Assembly: GCF_007750855.1 (NCBI RefSeq)
Contig: NZ_CP036291.1
Span: forward strand, 5,554,905-5,618,904
DNA length: 64,000 bases
DNA from: Pirellulimonas nuda
Lineage (GTDB): Bacteria > Planctomycetota > Planctomycetia > Pirellulales > Lacipirellulaceae
Direction: 5' to 3'
In this document: positions 7,857 through 17,275 of the stretch, one piece after another
Numbering within the stretch: position 1 is the first letter of the stretch
How the letters are laid out: each line of letters opens with the position of its first letter
The notes under the pieces: model-generated
What the model was told of the DNA's origin: nothing
Database searches by the model: none
The model's input: the letters and a program-made list of their open reading frames with translations, nothing else
Made by a program: the position numbers and the translations under genes

Positions 7857-9009
7857 TACGCTTTCTATTTTGAAGTAGCGCGATCGAGGTAGGGAGCTGC
7901 GCAGACCGAACGGACGAGGTCCTGGTCGAGGACGGCGACGCGCCATGCGGCCATGGCGGCCGCTTCGAGGGCGTCGTAGTCGGCGTAGGCGCGGTTGCTC
8001 CAGAAGTGGCTCTTGAGGTAGTGCCAGAGGTTCTCGATCGGGTTGAGCTCGGGGCTGTAGGGGGGCAGCTTCACCAGCGTCACGTTCTCCGGCACACGCA
8101 GCGCGCTGCTGGTGTGGAAGCCTGCGCCGTCCCAGATCATCACGGCGTGCTCTCCCTCGGGGATGGTCTTGGCGAACAGCTCCAAGAATGAGTTGACGAT
8201 CTGCGTGTTCAACTGCGGGCTGAGGAGCCCCTCGGCGTTCCCAGTCTCGGGGCACACGGCGCCGATGACCCACAGGTACTCGTACTCGGTCTGACGCACC
8301 GCCGTTGGCCGTGAGCCCTTCTCGGCCCAGACGTTGGTGTTGGTCCCCTGCTGGCCGAACCGCGACTCGTCCTGGAAGTAGACCCGCAGCCGCTTGCCCG
8401 GGTGCTCCGCGGCGATCTTGTCGAGGCGCTCAGGCCACGCTTGCTTGAACGCTTCGACCTGCGCCGGATCTGCCTTGCGATGCCGCGGCCGAGGACGCAG
8501 GCAGCTGTACCCCAAGCGGTGCAGCAGCCCATAGACCGACGGCAGCGACCGGAGCAGGTTGAACTCTGCCGCCAAGATCCGCTGAAAGTCCTTGCCGCGC
8601 AGCGTGCAGACCTCGTCCCCTTCGACCGGCCCGGCTTCAATCCGCTGGCGGAACGCGGCCTCTTGCTCGGCGTCGATCGGCAGCCGCGGCTCGCGCCCCC
8701 GCCGATCGTCGAGGCCCGCCAGGCCCTCGGCGTTGTAGCGGGCGGCCCACCGCTGGCAGATGCGACGCGACAGCCCCACCGCCGTGGCGATCGCCGGGGC
8801 GGTCCAGCCCTCCAAACCAAGCAGCACGATCCGCAGCCGCTGGAACCGGCCGATGTCCTTCTCTGCCCGCGCTAGGCGCCGCAGCTCCTCAATCGGGAGA
8901 TGGTCCTTGATCCGCATCGCGACCTCCATGCTAAAGGGGATCGCCGCAGTATGATGGGTAAAATGGGAGGGCGCAATAGAAGGCGCGCTAGTTCAGATTA
9001 GAAAGCGTA
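7857..9009. mobile_element. IS630-family insertion sequence, complete
   Basis: Terminal inverted repeats of 26 bp with three mismatches: 7857-7882 (starts TACGCTTTCTATTTTGAAG) and the complement of 8984-9009 (starts TACGCTTTCTAATCTGAAC). Both ends carry TA, the usual target and duplication of IS630/Tc1 elements. The transposase stop codon lies inside the left repeat. The copy looks intact, so insertion into the larger element is probably recent. It does not break a gene that I can recognise. Confidence 0.9.
7865..8917 (-). CDS. IS630-family transposase
   Basis: 350 residues from the ATG at 8917, which has GGAGG six bases upstream; a second ATG at 8929 is possible. N-terminal helix-turn-helix domains (residues about 15-75, with GLSRRICQRWAARYN) precede a DDE catalytic core: FQDESRFG near 180, IWDGAGFH near 258 and PELNPIENLW near 290, giving the Asp, Asp and Glu that bind metal. 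Cut-and-paste transposition at TA sites is expected. The reading frame is complete and bounded by matching terminal repeats, so the enzyme may still be active. Confidence 0.95.
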   Translation of the reverse strand: MRIKDHLPIEELRRLARAEKDIGRFQRLRIVLLGLEGWTAPAIATAVGLSRRICQRWAARYNAEGLAGLDDRRGREPRLPIDAEQEAAFRQRIEAGPVEGDEVCTLRGKDFQRILAAEFNLLRSLPSVYGLLHRLGYSCLRPRPRHRKADPAQVEAFKQAWPERLDKIAAEHPGKRLRVYFQDESRFGQQGTNTNVWAEKGSRPTAVRQTEYEYLWVIGAVCPETGNAEGLLSPQLNTQIVNSFLELFAKTIPEGEHAVMIWDGAGFHTSSALRVPENVTLVKLPPYSPELNPIENLWHYLKSHFWSNRAYADYDALEAAAMAAWRVAVLDQDLVRSVCAAPYLDRATSK

Positions 9010-11354: not shown

Positions 11355-12530
11355 CTAGCCGATCTCACGCGCCACCTCGATCGCCCGCCGACGGTCCTTC
11401 TCGGCGTAGAGCTGCGTCGTCCCCACCTGGCTGTGTCCCAGCAGTGTCTTGGCGGCGTCCAGGTCATAGTCCCGGCGCACGCGCGTAGCAACTAAGTGTC
11501 GCAGCTGGTTGGGGCTCCAACGCTCGACGCCCGCCAGCTCCGCTGCACGTGCGATCGCACGCCCGTAGCTTTGCGTCGTGTAGCACGGCTTGGGAGGCCG
11601 CTTGGGCTTGGGGGTGTACTTCGAACCGGCGCGGTTGCCGCAGGAGAGGGGCGTCTTGCGTTCCGCGGCGCGGCGAAGCCGCATCTCGTTGACCGAGGCG
11701 GCGGGCGAGAAGACGTACCCTTCTTCGGCTCCCTCGAGGAAGGGAAGAAGGACCGCCTGGGACTTCGGGCCGAAGTAGAGCGTGCGGTCGCGGTCGTGAT
11801 GGGCGGTCTTGTGATCAACAAGCCTAGCCTCCCAGACCTCGGTCGAACGGTCGATGTCCGTCGTGCGGAGCATGCAGACCTCACCCGGGCGGGCGCCGGT
11901 GAGCATCTGGAGGCGGACCATCGCGGATACCACGCTCGTGAGGTGAGGCAGGGTCTGATCGACTACCGAGGCGTCAGCCGCATGCACCGGCGCGCTCTCG
12001 TGGGCGCCGGAGCGGCCCCTGCGAAGCCCCGGGATCAACGACAGGGTCTGGGGGGTGGCGGGCGGGATGTGCCCCTCCGACGCGGCCCAGCGGAAGAAGC
12101 GGCACAGGCGCTTCATCAACGCGTTGATGTAGGTCCGGGCGAGGCCCTCGGCGATCAGCTTCTCTCGGATCGCCTTGAACTGGGCCGGCCCGAACTCGGC
12201 CGGGCTGGTCCGGCCGTACAATTCGCGGAGCAGCCGCAGCGGCCGCTTCATGTTGGTGAACTCGCCGCGGTTCCCGGCGCCGTAGTACGGCTTGGCGAAC
12301 CGGAGGTAGGCAGCGATCAGCTCGACCATGGTTAGCCGATCCGCCGGGGCGCCGAAGGAGGGAGACCGACCGGCGGCCAGCCACTCGTGGACCACGCGGT
12401 CGTACTCGAGCTTGCTGACCTTCGTGCCGTGCGGCCCGAGGTAATAGTCCTTGCCGGCGAGGGTGACGATGGCCTGACCACTGGCGCGGTGCTTACGGTA
12501 CTTCGGGACGCCAACGCTAAGACGGGGCAT
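11355..12530 (-). CDS. Tyrosine-family site-specific integrase
   Basis: 391-residue tyrosine recombinase. An N-terminal SAM-like DNA-binding domain (about 65-165, with the typical KAIREKLIAEGLARTYIN) precedes the catalytic domain. Catalytic residues visible are Arg in TGARPGEV near 208, the His/Arg pair in NQLRHLVATR near 342, His in LLGHSQVG near 360, and the nucleophilic Tyr in TTQLYAEKD near 373. It integrates and excises the element by strand exchange at short core sites. Its 5' end faces tRNA-Gly 127 bp away, the classic arrangement for integration into a tRNA 3' end. A 24-bp palindrome lies just before its start. Confidence 0.93.
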   Translation of the reverse strand: MPRLSVGVPKYRKHRASGQAIVTLAGKDYYLGPHGTKVSKLEYDRVVHEWLAAGRSPSFGAPADRLTMVELIAAYLRFAKPYYGAGNRGEFTNMKRPLRLLRELYGRTSPAEFGPAQFKAIREKLIAEGLARTYINALMKRLCRFFRWAASEGHIPPATPQTLSLIPGLRRGRSGAHESAPVHAADASVVDQTLPHLTSVVSAMVRLQMLTGARPGEVCMLRTTDIDRSTEVWEARLVDHKTAHHDRDRTLYFGPKSQAVLLPFLEGAEEGYVFSPAASVNEMRLRRAAERKTPLSCGNRAGSKYTPKPKRPPKPCYTTQSYGRAIARAAELAGVERWSPNQLRHLVATRVRRDYDLDAAKTLLGHSQVGTTQLYAEKDRRRAIEVAREIG

Positions 12531-12557
12531 GTGCAGGTCTCCCAGATTACGCAGAGT

Positions 12558-12581
12558 GCAAAACGGTACGTACCGTTTTGC
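12558..12581. promoter_or_regulatory. 24-bp perfect palindrome upstream of integrase
   Basis: Two perfect 12-bp half-sites, GCAAAACGGTAC (12558-12569) and GTACCGTTTTGC (12570-12581), with no spacer, lie 27 bases upstream of the integrase start and 76 bases from the tRNA 3' end. It fits an operator for a dimeric regulator controlling int, or a binding site for integrase or excisionase in the attachment region. Confidence 0.6.
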
Positions 12582-12656
12582 GCCCTCGGGAAACGCCGCA
12601 CTGCCGAGAATTGGCAGGTATCACAAGTGCTTGATTCGGCGGGATTTACGTCAAGA

Positions 12657-12727
12657 GCGGGCGATGGGATTCGAACCCACGACTTCCAGCTTGGGAAGCT
12701 AGCACTCTACCACTGAGTTACGCCCGC
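12657..12727 (-). tRNA. tRNA-Gly (anticodon CCC)
   Basis: 71-nt cloverleaf: 7-bp acceptor stem GCGGGCG/CGCCCGC, D arm ACTC/GAGT, anticodon stem CTAGC/GCTGG around the loop TTCCCAA (anticodon CCC), and a T arm with GTTCGAAT. The 3' CCA is not encoded. The 3' end faces the integrase gene, so the last bases are the likely integration core of the element to the left. Confidence 0.95.
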
Positions 12728-12834: not shown

Positions 12835-13038
12835 CTACCAAGAGGTGCGTTTGTTGCGGCGTTTGTGGATTCCTCCCATTGGCCCCGCGGTCCGCTTCCT
12901 GCGCCCGTTCGATGGCCGCTTCGAGGCCCGCCCCGGCACGGAACGCTTTGCGCTCCCTACTGGCAGCGATTCTCGCACCGGCGGATCAAGCCTACGGAGC
13001 GCGTCGTCGTCCAACGGCTCCTGACTTTCCAATGGCAT
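12835..13038 (-). CDS. Small basic protein, GIH(K/R)RR...SW tail (paralog A)
   Basis: 67 residues. The start at 13038 is supported by GGGAGA six bases upstream. The N-terminal part is acidic (MPLESQEPLDDDALRRLD); the rest is Arg/Lys-rich and ends GGIHKRRNKRTSW. The same tail, NGIHRRRRRKMSW, ends a second small protein at 13747-13938, so the two are paralogs conserved mainly in their last 13 residues. Being very basic, the tail may bind nucleic acid or membranes. No function is known to me. It lies downstream of the receiver-like gene on the same strand, 70 bp away. Confidence 0.6.
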   Translation of the reverse strand: MPLESQEPLDDDALRRLDPPVRESLPVGSAKRSVPGRASKRPSNGRRKRTAGPMGGIHKRRNKRTSW

Positions 13039-13108
13039 GGTTTTCTCCCTTCGAAGATCTCTACGGTTTCCCCCTCCCCCCGGGCCTTCGATCGCGTGGC
13101 GGGAGCGG

Positions 13109-13624
13109 CTACCACGAAGCGGCGGTTTCGCTGGCGAGACGACCCGCGTCTACGCGAGCGACCTTCCGCACGGCTGCTTTTGCGTCGCGGCAGATTGACG
13201 GCAAATCGCAGCCTTCAACAACACCCGGCAGGCAAGCCCATACGCCCAGGCAACGGGCCCACAACTCGCCTTCCGAATCTCCGTCCGCGACGCACACGGC
13301 CACCAACACTCGGTCGCCATGCAGCGCGCGGATCAACGCCCCGATCGCGTCGCGGTCGACGCCATCGATGCGGCCCTCGACGGGGGGACCCGCCTCGGCG
13401 ACATCGATCAGCGCAAACGCCGCACGCCTCAGTCGCGACTGCCGAACGGCCTCTTCGGCGGATCGGCACGAAACAACCTCCCAGCCGGCCTCGGAAGCCG
13501 ACCGCATCAGGAAGCGCCGCTGACGTTCGCTGCGCGCAACGATCAAGCAGCGCATGGTCGCCGTAGCGATGGCCGCAATAGGCGACGCCCGCGGCTCCGA
13601 CGCCGCGTAAGTTTCTACGGGCAT
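13109..13624 (-). CDS. Response-regulator receiver-like protein, phosphorylation site degenerate
   Basis: 171 residues from the ATG at 13624 (GGAGGG six bases upstream). From residue 24 (MRCLIVARSERQRRFLMRSA) the sequence follows the receiver fold: a first strand, a helix, a second strand VVSCRSAEEAV, and a third strand ALIDVAEAGPP where the phospho-acceptor Asp is expected. The usual acidic pair after strand one is replaced by Ala-Arg, so metal binding and phosphorylation are doubtful; this may be a pseudo-receiver. No output domain follows. It is sandwiched between two paralogous small basic proteins on the same strand. Fold assignment is moderate confidence. Confidence 0.6.
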   Translation of the reverse strand: MPVETYAASEPRASPIAAIATATMRCLIVARSERQRRFLMRSASEAGWEVVSCRSAEEAVRQSRLRRAAFALIDVAEAGPPVEGRIDGVDRDAIGALIRALHGDRVLVAVCVADGDSEGELWARCLGVWACLPGVVEGCDLPSICRDAKAAVRKVARVDAGRLASETAASW

Positions 13625-13746
13625 AGTCGCCCTCCGCTAGGTAAAGTTGCGCCCCGTTTGCTGGGGTCGGACGAGCTGCTTGCGCATGGAGTCATCGGCG
13701 AGCGAGACGCCCGACATGCAGAAAACGCAAGCCACCCGGTCACCGA

Positions 13747-13938
13747 CTACCAAGACATCTTGCGGCGGCGACGACGGTGGATGCCGTTGATCGACTGAGG
13801 CGTCTTTCCACGACGCCGACCCTGCACCGGCCGGTTGTCGGCGGCGTTCGCCCGGTTGCGTGTGCCGTAGTTGAAAGAGGAAGAGTCGTCGCTATCGGCC
13901 GAACCGTTACCGAAACCCTGCCGCTGTTCGCTAGCCAT
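13747..13938 (-). CDS. Small basic protein, GIH(K/R)RR...SW tail (paralog B)
   Basis: 63 residues from the ATG at 13938, chosen because GGAG lies seven bases upstream; the frame is open further to 14010 without a ribosome site. The first half is polar and Ser/Asn/Gly-rich (DSDDSSSFNYGTRNRANAAD); the second half is strongly basic and ends NGIHRRRRRKMSW, matching the tail of the 12835-13038 protein. Probably the first gene of a minus-strand group with the receiver-like protein and paralog A. Function unknown. Confidence 0.6.
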   Translation of the reverse strand: MASEQRQGFGNGSADSDDSSSFNYGTRNRANAADNRPVQGRRRGKTPQSINGIHRRRRRKMSW

Positions 13939-14381
13939 TTTGCGTCTCCATCTGCTTGAGGAACTTGCAGGCCGGCGGGGACTCCCCGGTCCCGTGGTCG
14001 CCGAGCGCATCTACAAACGCCGTTGCCTGCTCCGTGCCTCTGCTTAAGCGAGCGGCGTGCCAGAGCCTTGACTAGCGAAGACAACGGGACGTAACCCATT
14101 GATGGCAAACGTGTTGCGAATCACGGAGGATCAACCATCATCGTCGGCCAGGGCGCTGCGGTTCCCTGATCCGCTGATCTCTCCGCGGCACGCAACGCCG
14201 CAAACCTATACCCAGAAGCAACTTGTGTCATATTTCACAGAAGCAGGGAGAAGCCACCAGAAAGGTGGAGAGGCCCCAGAAAGCCGGGATGGGGCGAGCC
14301 TGGGTCCGTTCTCCCTGTCCGCGGCCGAGAGACCGCAGCACGGGAGGCAGAAGCCTCAATCGAGGGCCGACCGAGCGGGGG
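13939..14381. other. Gene-free stretch with a foldable three-way-junction region
   Basis: No convincing gene in 443 bases. Within it, 14244-14317 can fold into a closed multi-branch structure. A perfect 9-bp stem, CAGGGAGAA (14244-14252) with TTCTCCCTG (14309-14317), encloses the hairpins CCACC-AGAAA-GGTGG (14254-14268) and CCCCA...TGGGG (14274-14294). It could be the 3' end structure of the sigma-54 activator mRNA, a leader of the 13938 gene, or a small RNA on either strand. Confidence 0.4.
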
Positions 14382-15362
14382 CTAGGACTCCGCCGACTCG
14401 TCGGCGCCAAGCTGCTGAATCAGCCGAGTCATCGTGTTGGGGTGCACCCCCAGCAAACGAGCGGCACGCCCCTTGTGCCCCTGCGACGACCGGAGGGCCT
14501 GCCGCACCGCGGCCGCGCGGAGCCTGTCGAGGTTGGTAAAGGGCAGGCTGGGAGCATTTGTGTCGCCGGAGCGTAGGGCCGGCAACGTCGGCTCGCAGTC
14601 CAGCACGTACGCTTGTTCGATCACGTGCGAGAGCTGGCGGATATTGCCCGGCCAGTGGAACTCGCAGAATCCCTGCAACTGCTCGTCGCTCGGTCGCCAC
14701 TGGGCGCGGCTGTAGCGGGCGGCGTACTTGCAGGAAAAGTACTCGACAAACCGCGGGATGTCCTCGACCCTTTGCCGCAACGGCGGCACCCGCAGCTCTA
14801 CCATGTTGAGGCGGTAGTAGAGGTCTTCGCGGAACCGGCCTGCCGCTACCTCTTGCTCCAGGTCGCGGTTGGTCGCGGCGATGATTTGCACATTCACTTG
14901 AATCGGGTGCGAGGCGCCGACGGGGGTCACTTCTCCCTGCTGCAAGACTCGCAGCAGCTTCGGCTGCAGCTCGAGCGGCATCTCCCCGACCTCGTCGAGA
15001 AAGACGATCCCCCCTTCGGCGGCCCGGAAGACGCCCAGGCTCTTGCCGGCGGCGCCGGTAAAGGCGCCCTTCTCGTGGCCAAAGAGTTGGCTCTCAGCGA
15101 GCGTGGGGGTGAGCGCTGCGCAGTTGACCGGCAACAGCGGTCGGTCGCGGCGGGGGCCGATCTGGTGCAGCAGTTTCGCCCACACTTCCTTTCCGGTGCC
15201 GGTTTCGCCGGTCACGAGAACGGGGCACTGCACTTCGGCCGCTTTCTCTGCGTGCCGGGCGATCTGGACGACCTTGGGGTTTTCCCCAAGCACCCAGCTA
15301 TCTGCCGATTCTGGCGAGAGCGCCAGAAGCGTATCGATCGATGGTGAGATAGATATCGACAT
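14382..15362 (-). CDS. Sigma-54-dependent transcriptional activator without sensor domain
   Basis: 326 residues from the ATG at 15362 (MSISISPSID); a further in-frame extension begins only with TTG. The AAA+ domain carries Walker A GETGTGKE near 50, the sigma-54 contact loop GAFTGA near 99, Walker B GGIVFLDEVG near 116, and the AATNRDL and YYRLNMVEL segments with arginine fingers. The C-terminus is a Fis-type helix-turn-helix (GRAARLLGVHPNTMTRLI). The N-terminal regulatory domain is only about 30 residues, so it should be constitutively competent or controlled by a partner. Targets are unknown; it would remodel RpoN-RNA polymerase at -24/-12 promoters. Confidence 0.92.
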   Translation of the reverse strand: MSISISPSIDTLLALSPESADSWVLGENPKVVQIARHAEKAAEVQCPVLVTGETGTGKEVWAKLLHQIGPRRDRPLLPVNCAALTPTLAESQLFGHEKGAFTGAAGKSLGVFRAAEGGIVFLDEVGEMPLELQPKLLRVLQQGEVTPVGASHPIQVNVQIIAATNRDLEQEVAAGRFREDLYYRLNMVELRVPPLRQRVEDIPRFVEYFSCKYAARYSRAQWRPSDEQLQGFCEFHWPGNIRQLSHVIEQAYVLDCEPTLPALRSGDTNAPSLPFTNLDRLRAAAVRQALRSSQGHKGRAARLLGVHPNTMTRLIQQLGADESAES

Positions 15363-16085
15363 CGGGTGATGAGGAGACCTAACAGCACTGGTGACGCACG
15401 ATCCCCGCAACCAGACCTGACGAAAGCGGCCCCAGCAGGGCCAACTCTTCCAGGAAACGATCGACTCGGCGGTGGGAACGACGCGGTGCGTCTTGGCTGT
15501 GTCAGATCACTAGCGTTTCCAGGGGGTGGACCGGGGAAGAGCTTCTTCGCACTCGATACGGAAGACAAACTTGAGCTGTTCGGAACCTTTACGGCCCGCC
15601 GCTAAGCTTTTCCTGATCATAATCATCTACGACAACCTCTTCAATCAATTCGCCGCGGAAATCTCCCCGCAAAGAGCCCCCGCGTTCGGCCTGCGCGGGA
15701 CGTTCCGGACGCACCGGCAAACACGGTTCTCGGGCCGTGTTTCTGGGGGTTTTTGCGTCATTCCCGGCGCCGACGCCTGAGCACTTTAGTGATTTCTGTG
15801 CGGAGGCCCGTTGACAGCCGGCAGCAGAATGGTAGCCTTGCGGCGCAGGTTGTGAAGAGCGCGCAGATTCCCTGACCGGAAAATTCGCCCCCATCCCACT
15901 TGTGAGGCATCGTCGGCCCGTATAGCGGCGACGCCCCCGGTACAAAATCGGAAATGCCACCCGCCTCAACCTTCTGTCAGCCAGACCCCTGGCAGGCAGA
16001 TCCCACAGCGGGTGACCACTCAGCCGGCTTGTCGCCGCCTGGGAAGCTGTTGTGGCCCATGGCCAGTTTTAGTGGAGGAATTGAG
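15363..16085. other. Gene-poor stretch, one possible small minus-strand gene
   Basis: 723 bases between divergent genes. On the minus strand a frame ending at 15589 closes with an acidic, protein-like tail (FRGELIEEVVVDDYDQEKL) that looks coded, but no good start codon or ribosome site is visible upstream, so it may be a short or degraded gene. The rest should hold the promoters of the sigma-54 activator (leftward) and of the CC-rich protein (rightward). Confidence 0.35.
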
Positions 16086-16475
16086 ATGCGTTTTGCGAAG
16101 TTCGTGCAGGCGAGCCTGGTGCTCGCCGTCGTCGTGATGGCCACCAGCGCCGAAGCTGGTTTGTTCCACAAGAAGAAGGCGGACAACTGCTGCCCCGCGC
16201 CGGCCTCGTGCTGTGCCGTTGAGCAGACCTGCTGCGCCGCCCCGGAGCCCTGCTGCGCCCCCGCCCCGGAGCCGTGCTGTCCTCCTGAGCCGGTCTGCTG
16301 CGAGCCCGCCCCCGTTTGCTGCGAGCCCGTTTCGTGCTGTGCGCCCGCTCCCGTGTGCTGCGACCCCTGCGATCCGTGCTGCAAGCCCCAGCGTCAGGGC
16401 TGCTTCGCTCGCATGCGGGCCAAGCGTGCCGCCAAGAATTGCTGCACCCCGTGCTGCACTCCTTGCTGCATGTAG
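16086..16475 (+). CDS. Secreted cysteine-rich protein with CC-pair repeats (paralog 1)
   Basis: 129 residues; ATG at 16086 follows GGAGGA. A signal peptide ([20 protein letters not shown], cut near SAEA-G) precedes a mature chain with about 30 Cys, nearly all as Cys-Cys pairs separated by Pro/Ala/Glu ([19 protein letters not shown]). A basic patch ([15 protein letters not shown]) comes near the end and the chain closes [11 protein letters not shown]. The shared start EAGLF.K..KK..NCCPAP shows it is a paralog of the next gene. Such dense Cys pairs suggest a disulfide-linked envelope or surface protein, or metal binding. Planctomycete walls have been reported as cystine-rich, which fits but does not prove it. 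A hairpin lies 36 bases after the stop. Confidence 0.8.
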
Positions 16476-16547: not shown

Positions 16548-16792
16548 TTCTTGTGAGTGGTTCCGCGGACCTTGCCAGGCCTGGCAAGATTGACGAAACA
16601 CCCCAAGCCCCTTAACCTACGCAATCGGAACCAAGGCCCAGCACGCGGTGTCGCGGCCTTTTTCCGGCGAGACAGAGCAACCCGGCCACCGAGTAGAAGC
16701 GCTCATACCCTGTGGTCTGGCTGAGGGATCTCCCCCATCCGGCATGGTTGCCGTCCCATTGATCGAGCGCACCCGCTTAAGGAGAGACTGTG

Positions 16793-17275
16793 ATGTCGTT
16801 TACCCCCGTTTTGCGTTTCGGAGTTGCTGCGACCCTGGTTGCCGGATTGGCACTGGCCACCGCCAGCACCGCCGAGGCCGGCCTGTTCGCCAAGCTGTGT
16901 GGCAAGAAGAAGTCGAACTGCTGCCCCGCCCCCACCTGCTGCGAGCCGGTCTCGTGCTGCGCCCAGCAGCCCACCTGCTGCGAAGCTCCCGTGAGCGATT
17001 GCGGTTGCAGCGCCCCGGTCAGCGACTGCGGCTGCAGCGCCCCGGCGAGTGATTGTGGTTGCGGCGCCCCGGCCGCTGATTGTGGCTGCGGCTCGGCCGT
17101 GGTTGAGTCGGGTTGTGGTTGTGGCGGCGCGGTCGTGGAGGGTTCGGTCGTGATCGAGAGCTCCCCCGCCGACGCCCCGACCCCGGCCGCCGGCGAGATG
17201 AAGGCCCCCGAGGCCCCCAAGGCGCCGGAAGCCCCGAAGGCCCCTGAGGCCCCCAAGGCCGACGAAGCCGCCTAA
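16793..17275 (+). CDS. Secreted cysteine-rich protein with DCGC repeats (paralog 2)
   Basis: 160 residues from the ATG at 16793 (AAGGAGA upstream; a GTG at 16790 is in frame). A signal peptide ends near TASTAEA. The mature part begins like paralog 1 (GLFAKLCGKKKSNCCPAP), then has CC pairs, then four copies of a (S/A)DCGC(S/G)AP unit. A long tail repeats EAPKAP four times and is rich in Ala, Pro, Lys and Glu, like wall-spanning or surface linkers. No enzyme motif is present. A strong terminator follows at once, so the locus is self-contained. A role as disulfide-linked structural or metal-binding envelope protein is inferred. Confidence 0.8.
   Translation: MSFTPVLRFGVAATLVAGLALATASTAEAGLFAKLCGKKKSNCCPAPTCCEPVSCCAQQPTCCEAPVSDCGCSAPVSDCGCSAPASDCGCGAPAADCGCGSAVVESGCGCGGAVVEGSVVIESSPADAPTPAAGEMKAPEAPKAPEAPKAPEAPKADEAA

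Follow-up and report, generated by a model that had tools for sequence, protein, structure and literature searches.

A putative sigma-54-controlled circuit linking a pseudo-receiver with two short tailed proteins in Pirellulales

PspF-like activators consist of an AAA+ domain and a helix-turn-helix (HTH) and carry no regulatory domain, and VpsR, a matrix regulator of Vibrio, is built as one chain. In Proteobacteria, PEP-CTERM genes are under sigma-54 control according to the available parts of two papers (PMC1569441, PMC9850573); one of these, a 2006 survey, describes its motifs, in the portion available, as common to Proteobacteria only (PMC1569441). That 2006 paper was the only one found to connect planctomycetes, sigma-54 and PEP-CTERM in the searched literature, which did not extend to subscription papers. 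A 2025 sigma-54 survey makes no mention of PEP-CTERM in its available sections (PMC12316311), and the accessible text of PMC3162934 adds nothing on split activators.

The locus described here lies in a 64,000-nucleotide window of the genome of Pirellulimonas nuda, a member of the Lacipirellulaceae in the order Pirellulales, the window being the whole stretch of DNA that was analysed (Table 1). On the minus strand, transcription order runs from the activator gene c2, across a gap of ∼440 bp, to small gene B, the pseudo-receiver gene c1 and small gene A, followed by a tRNA-Gly and an integrase gene. The B-c1-A locus looks like an undescribed regulatory circuit, within which the role of the small proteins is a guess. 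The explanation that best accounts for the whole, to which we give slightly less than even weight, is that A and B are partners of c1 in a sigma-54-controlled operon that belongs to a split NtrC-type activator circuit.

Table 1. Features of the B-c1-A locus and its surroundings (positions within the window)
Feature	Position	Strand	Remarks
Transposase	7865-8929	(-)	DDE_3 and winged-helix domains
tRNA-Gly (ccc), then phage-type integrase gene	11355-12727	(-)	directly downstream of A
Small protein A (67 aa), downstream subtype	12835..13038	(-)	tail GGIHKRRNKRTSW at end
Pseudo-receiver c1 (171 aa)	13109..13624	(-)	receiver fold (AlphaFold2)
Small protein B (63 aa), upstream subtype	13747..13938	(-)	tail NGIHRRRRRKMSW at end
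Sigma-54-type -24/-12 site	14047..14062	(-)	TGGCACGCCGCTCGCT; 124 bp upstream of gene B
Enhancer-like dyad 3, degenerate	14163..14177	(-)	-115 from -24 element
Enhancer-like dyad 2, degenerate	14235..14249	(-)	-187; 19 bp from dyad 1
Enhancer-like dyad 1, degenerate	14254..14268	(-)	-206 from -24 element
Sigma-54 activator c2	14382..15410	(-)	AAA+ and Fis-type HTH; Pfam Sigma54_activat 8e-67 (PF00158), HTH_8 5e-07
Two adjoining Cys/Pro-rich proteins	15954-16475, 16790-17275	(+)	many CC motifs

The small-protein family and its association with c1

The predicted products of genes A and B are two paralogues of one short-protein family of ∼56-71 residues. Both frames and their tails, proposed in an earlier sequence-only reading of this DNA, proved real, on the minus strand. 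Plausible ribosome sites (GGAG or GGGAG) stand just 5' of the ATG of the two genes. The same reading had described the N-terminal halves as variable; these do differ between the paralogues A and B, but each is recognizably conserved among its own orthologues. In a 51-row alignment of the family, three tail residues (G, H and one R) never vary, and M1, I, a second R and the terminal W are present in at least 90% of rows, with conservation sharp up to the last residue. The predicted family is under purifying selection, with dN/dS of ∼0.12-0.30 in eight pairs of related small genes. The strings HRRRNKR, GIHRRR and NGIHRR occur in no paper of the searched literature (subscription papers lying outside the search), and a match to an IceA2 PDB chain (2.4e-04 over 14 residues), in which no stretch passes alone, was taken as composition.

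The strict tail pattern has only two copies in the 6.62-Mb genome, both in the B-c1-A operon. The tail-pattern search of related genomes that had been set beforehand as a check returned further matches, and the proposal of a lineage-specific tail holds: the pattern matches in 66 of 296 Pirellulales genomes, against none for the reversed pattern, and outside the order a slightly looser pattern stays at background (3 of 380 genomes versus four reversed-control matches). Eleven further genomes of the same order, scanned with a slightly looser pattern, gave no match. Across 84,980 species genomes, 89 stretches matched, 80 of which were listed; among the matches listed, reading of the translations by eye identified at least 46 family members, all with planctomycete titles and including Lacipirellula limnantheis, Adhaeretor mobilis and Bythopirellula polymerisocia, and the other 34 look like chance frames. 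Members in MAGs titled Kuenenia and Planctomicrobium (L091, L129, L120) are the only ones under titles from elsewhere than Pirellulales, and these titles probably reflect loose record naming. In the genomes sampled, the predicted family is confined to this order. A short Tyr-/Arg-rich protein of one relative (L285 in G075), preceded by a sigma-54-type site, ends in GRRGRRWGW, outside the tail pattern, and may belong to an additional branch of this kind.

Genomic neighborhood analysis places a c1 gene within 1.6 kb, on the same strand, of 69 of the 74 strict tail matches (63 genomes). The remaining five comprise four apparent chance translations and one match at a contig edge (G253); tails without c1 are therefore rare. 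The reverse association is looser. A c1 profile search found members at E 1e-20 or better in 101 of the 296 genomes, 38 of which have no strict tail. When 20 loci without a strict tail (19 genomes) were fetched, nine carried looser G[LMV]H tails and none was found at 11, which indicates that c1 can work without a tail. Copies upstream and downstream of c1 represent two tail subtypes, distinguished by a Lys at the sixth position past the His, which 24 of 26 upstream copies carry versus 1 of 37 downstream copies (a duplicate place, L334, was dropped, and five copies were unplaceable), a pattern suggestive of an ancient duplication flanking c1. At L334, the same place as L059 in relative G008, three tail genes surround one pseudo-receiver, one upstream and two downstream.

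The pseudo-receiver, the activator and the upstream region

The earlier description of a receiver-like protein without the usual acidic pair between A and B is borne out. The AlphaFold2 model of c1 (mean pLDDT 86.7) comprises a receiver fold followed by a long C-terminal (linker) helix and matches receivers near 1e-6 in Foldseek. In VIA-align, the receivers of NtrC1, PleD, HupR and NtrX rank together for c1 (Z 16-17); the fold comparison thus places PleD alongside NtrC1 and NtrX and by itself does not point specifically to sigma-54 activators. It has neither an acidic pair following strand 1 nor the Lys of strand 5. The acceptor-like strand-3 Asp, by contrast, is retained in the family, at 46 of 50 tail-bearing loci and at all 14 other c1 loci (one of the 14, L216, in fact has a tail with a shorter end). 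The protein seems to have lost phosphorylation chemistry. Twelve of the weaker profile matches below the c1 family were retrieved, all with long open frames; domain scans of 10 of these identified a receiver-AAA+-HTH activator in every case, a count that applies to long-frame matches only. By this comparison, the nearest relatives of c1 outside its own family include putative receivers of NtrC-type activators. The Pfam VpsR domain is matched by 7 of 30 c1 members at E 0.01 or better (best 2.2e-05), and the c1 of the window reaches E 0.067 and 13.4 bits, against a curated cut-off of 23.7. No tail-contact residues stood out on c1, its invariant residues being the same in loci with and without tails. 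Position 131 is W in 50 of 50 tail loci versus nine W and five F in the 14 others; the loci are too few and too related, and this position was rejected as a contact clue.

By domain content, c2 is a predicted sigma-54 activator (bacterial enhancer-binding protein) for which DNA binding and promoter activation are likewise predicted. Its GAFTGA loop is kept in 21 aligned orthologues, an alternative start at the ATG at 15362 would give 326 aa, and rpoN is present in the genome. Pfam detected no N-terminal receiver or sensor domain, and the AAA+ domain, which starts near residue 41, leaves too little sequence ahead of it for a receiver. In NCBIfam, c2 scores at best far below every curated cut-off. 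In relatives, c2 is often the next gene upstream of the small-protein operon. In the Lacipirellulaceae loci L039-L055, the activator often lies just downstream of lpxD-/lpxI-like genes, a synteny also found in some other families.

Regulation of the predicted operon by a sigma-54 promoter and dyads is well supported by sequence. At 24 of 41 loci, a script rule assigned a site of the form GGCA[CT][AG]-N4-T[CT]GC ahead of the small gene or c1. These 24 promoters cover 20 of the 21 Lacipirellulaceae loci; at the remaining one (L053), a site is present but was left unassigned by the script. Upstream of them, the dyad consensus is TCACC-N5-GGTGA; exact dyads, counted as TCAC-N7-GTGA, number 42 versus 0.11 expected, with at least one in 19 of 24, and their positions cluster near -206, -187 and -115 or about one helical turn closer. 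None of the dyads in the window is exact, yet they stand at these same three positions, and the pair formed by dyads 1 and 2 beat all 500 shuffles. Allowing one mismatch, the dyad pair occurs at 58 distinct places in 53 of 296 Pirellulales genomes (reversed control 0), of which 39 have a c1 or tail gene within 2.6 kb and 19 lie elsewhere.

Other signals were considered and rejected. NifA-like TGT-N10-ACA sites are present in the window but at only 3 of the 24 promoters. A structured RNA upstream of B was discarded on folding z-scores of -1.1 and -1.4 and on an Rfam search that gave only the tRNA-Gly and two microRNA matches far below cut-off. Genome-wide, sigma-54 sites number five versus three in the reversed control, which means that single sites carry little meaning in this genome; across eight genomes, this one included, there are 95 versus 38. 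Of the 90 sites outside this genome, 40 were fetched, some of which precede genes recognized by eye as flgB, csrA, groEL and pseudopilins. Many fetched sites lie inside genes, and a regulon map based on these counts was rejected.

Downstream of A, the tRNA-Gly and integrase gene possibly mark an integrated element, which may have taken the place of the gene found after A in relatives. A single copy of the tRNA-Gly 3' part is present in the window, which thus shows no attachment repeat.

A regulatory model and its alternatives

The proposed mechanism, drawn from sequence evidence and structure prediction, has three steps of decreasing certainty. The activator c2 would bind the dyads and fire the -24/-12 promoter; that B-c1-A is turned on via the dyads by an activator with no sensor of its own is, on the sequence evidence, quite probable. 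The pseudo-receiver would derive from an NtrC-type activator as its detached receiver half. It may tune the activator in trans, a step that we rate a shade below an even chance; being made by the operon, c1 would in that case endow it with its own feedback, without phosphorylation. Least surely, A and B, as cationic and mostly disordered partners, would dock via the NGIHRRR...W tail on c1 itself or on a c1-activator-DNA complex, and action of the small proteins through c1 by their tails is a tentative suggestion that we would put at about one third. A PEP-CTERM surface protein follows in some relatives, and the circuit may therefore act on the cell exterior. The fullest form of the proposal is doubtful: a Pirellulales split sigma-54 activator, composed of an AAA+/HTH half and a phosphorylation-dead receiver half, the latter encoded in an operon switched on by the former, with the two tailed proteins docking and setting the feedback, would amount to a PrsR counterpart specific to this lineage and working without phosphorylation.

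The small proteins themselves invite a different explanation. A and B are strongly basic, short and apparently disordered (the model of B is mostly of low confidence, the tail being its best part), and reading of their sequences shows no signal-like N-terminus; such proteins could be nucleic-acid-binding effectors, associated with ribosomes, mRNA or the nucleoid and produced under a sigma-54 condition, with c1 only controlling the operon. However, the 51 members scanned against Pfam and NCBIfam share no family in either library, ribosomal, nucleoid or other, and the tails almost never occur away from c1, which a free-standing effector would not need; we consider this role rather unlikely. Far less probable still is the suggestion of the sequence-only reading that the tail serves at the C-terminus as a general tag for sorting or processing, carried by proteins with nothing else in common. 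Conservation that is sharp to the final residue would suit such a tag, but the genome has only the two strict copies, both in one operon, the matches in relatives are tied to c1, and the N-terminal halves are conserved within each subtype; this suggestion is not supported. The tail is better described as the predicted conserved C-terminus of a single family, whose genes are tied to a pseudo-receiver partner, and a binding role for the tail is plausible.

The third alternative, that c1 and the small proteins are not regulators but accessory factors for export or sorting of a PEP-CTERM surface protein, draws on the downstream genes. At 17 of 55 loci, the genes downstream on the same strand include a PEP-CTERM-like one, versus 0.71 expected from random windows at the same loci; off-operon dyads precede PEP-CTERM proteins in L325 and L326; and the VpsR domain matched by the seven c1 members is that of a matrix regulator. 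Against this, the pattern found no such gene in 38 of the 55 loci, the window shows no candidate, and near off-locus dyads five of the eight proteins scanned gave no PEP-CTERM match and one (L322) fell below cut-off. This genome has 87 PEP-CTERM matches and two exosortases, yet none of the 30 PEP-CTERM loci examined has both a sigma-54 site and a dyad. An accessory role is thus improbable, and a general PEP-CTERM regulon in this genome is unsupported by these 30 loci. One of the five sigma-54 sites of the genome precedes a PEP-CTERM gene (L077), without an exact dyad.

Comparison with known systems

The preferred reading has A and B as candidate partners of c1 in a split activator circuit. It connects a short-protein family missed by standard libraries to a putative planctomycete regulatory circuit whose promoter and enhancer array are defined. 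Like PspF-like activators, c2 consists of AAA+ and HTH domains alone; unlike PspF, it has no PspA-like gene seen beside it. The likeness to VpsR lies in the Pfam domain matched by some c1 members, VpsR being one chain. Compared with NtrC-type activators (NtrC1, NtrX), c1 resembles the receiver and linker helix, and c2 the AAA+/HTH part, but the two halves are separate genes here and c1 has neither the acidic pair nor the strand-5 Lys. The circuit would offer a direct test case of a sensorless sigma-54 activator under a separately encoded, non-phosphorylatable receiver.

The locus shares with the PrsK/PrsR-RpoN system, as far as the available parts of the two papers describe it (PMC1569441, PMC9850573), a sigma-54 promoter with an upstream activator motif, a Fis-type activator and, in part of the loci, a PEP-CTERM link. 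It is a possible lead on the control of PEP-CTERM surface proteins in some planctomycetes, given that the 2006 survey, in its available text, detected no common motif beyond the Proteobacteria. In the portions available, the upstream motif of Proteobacteria terminates in TTTACA, whereas the dyad here is TCACC-N5-GGTGA, and c2 scores 255.9 bits against the PrsR model TIGR02915, below the curated cut-off of 502.6. According to the same partial texts, PrsR has its own receiver and a kinase partner, whereas c2 has no receiver and its putative pseudo-receiver counterpart is a separate gene.
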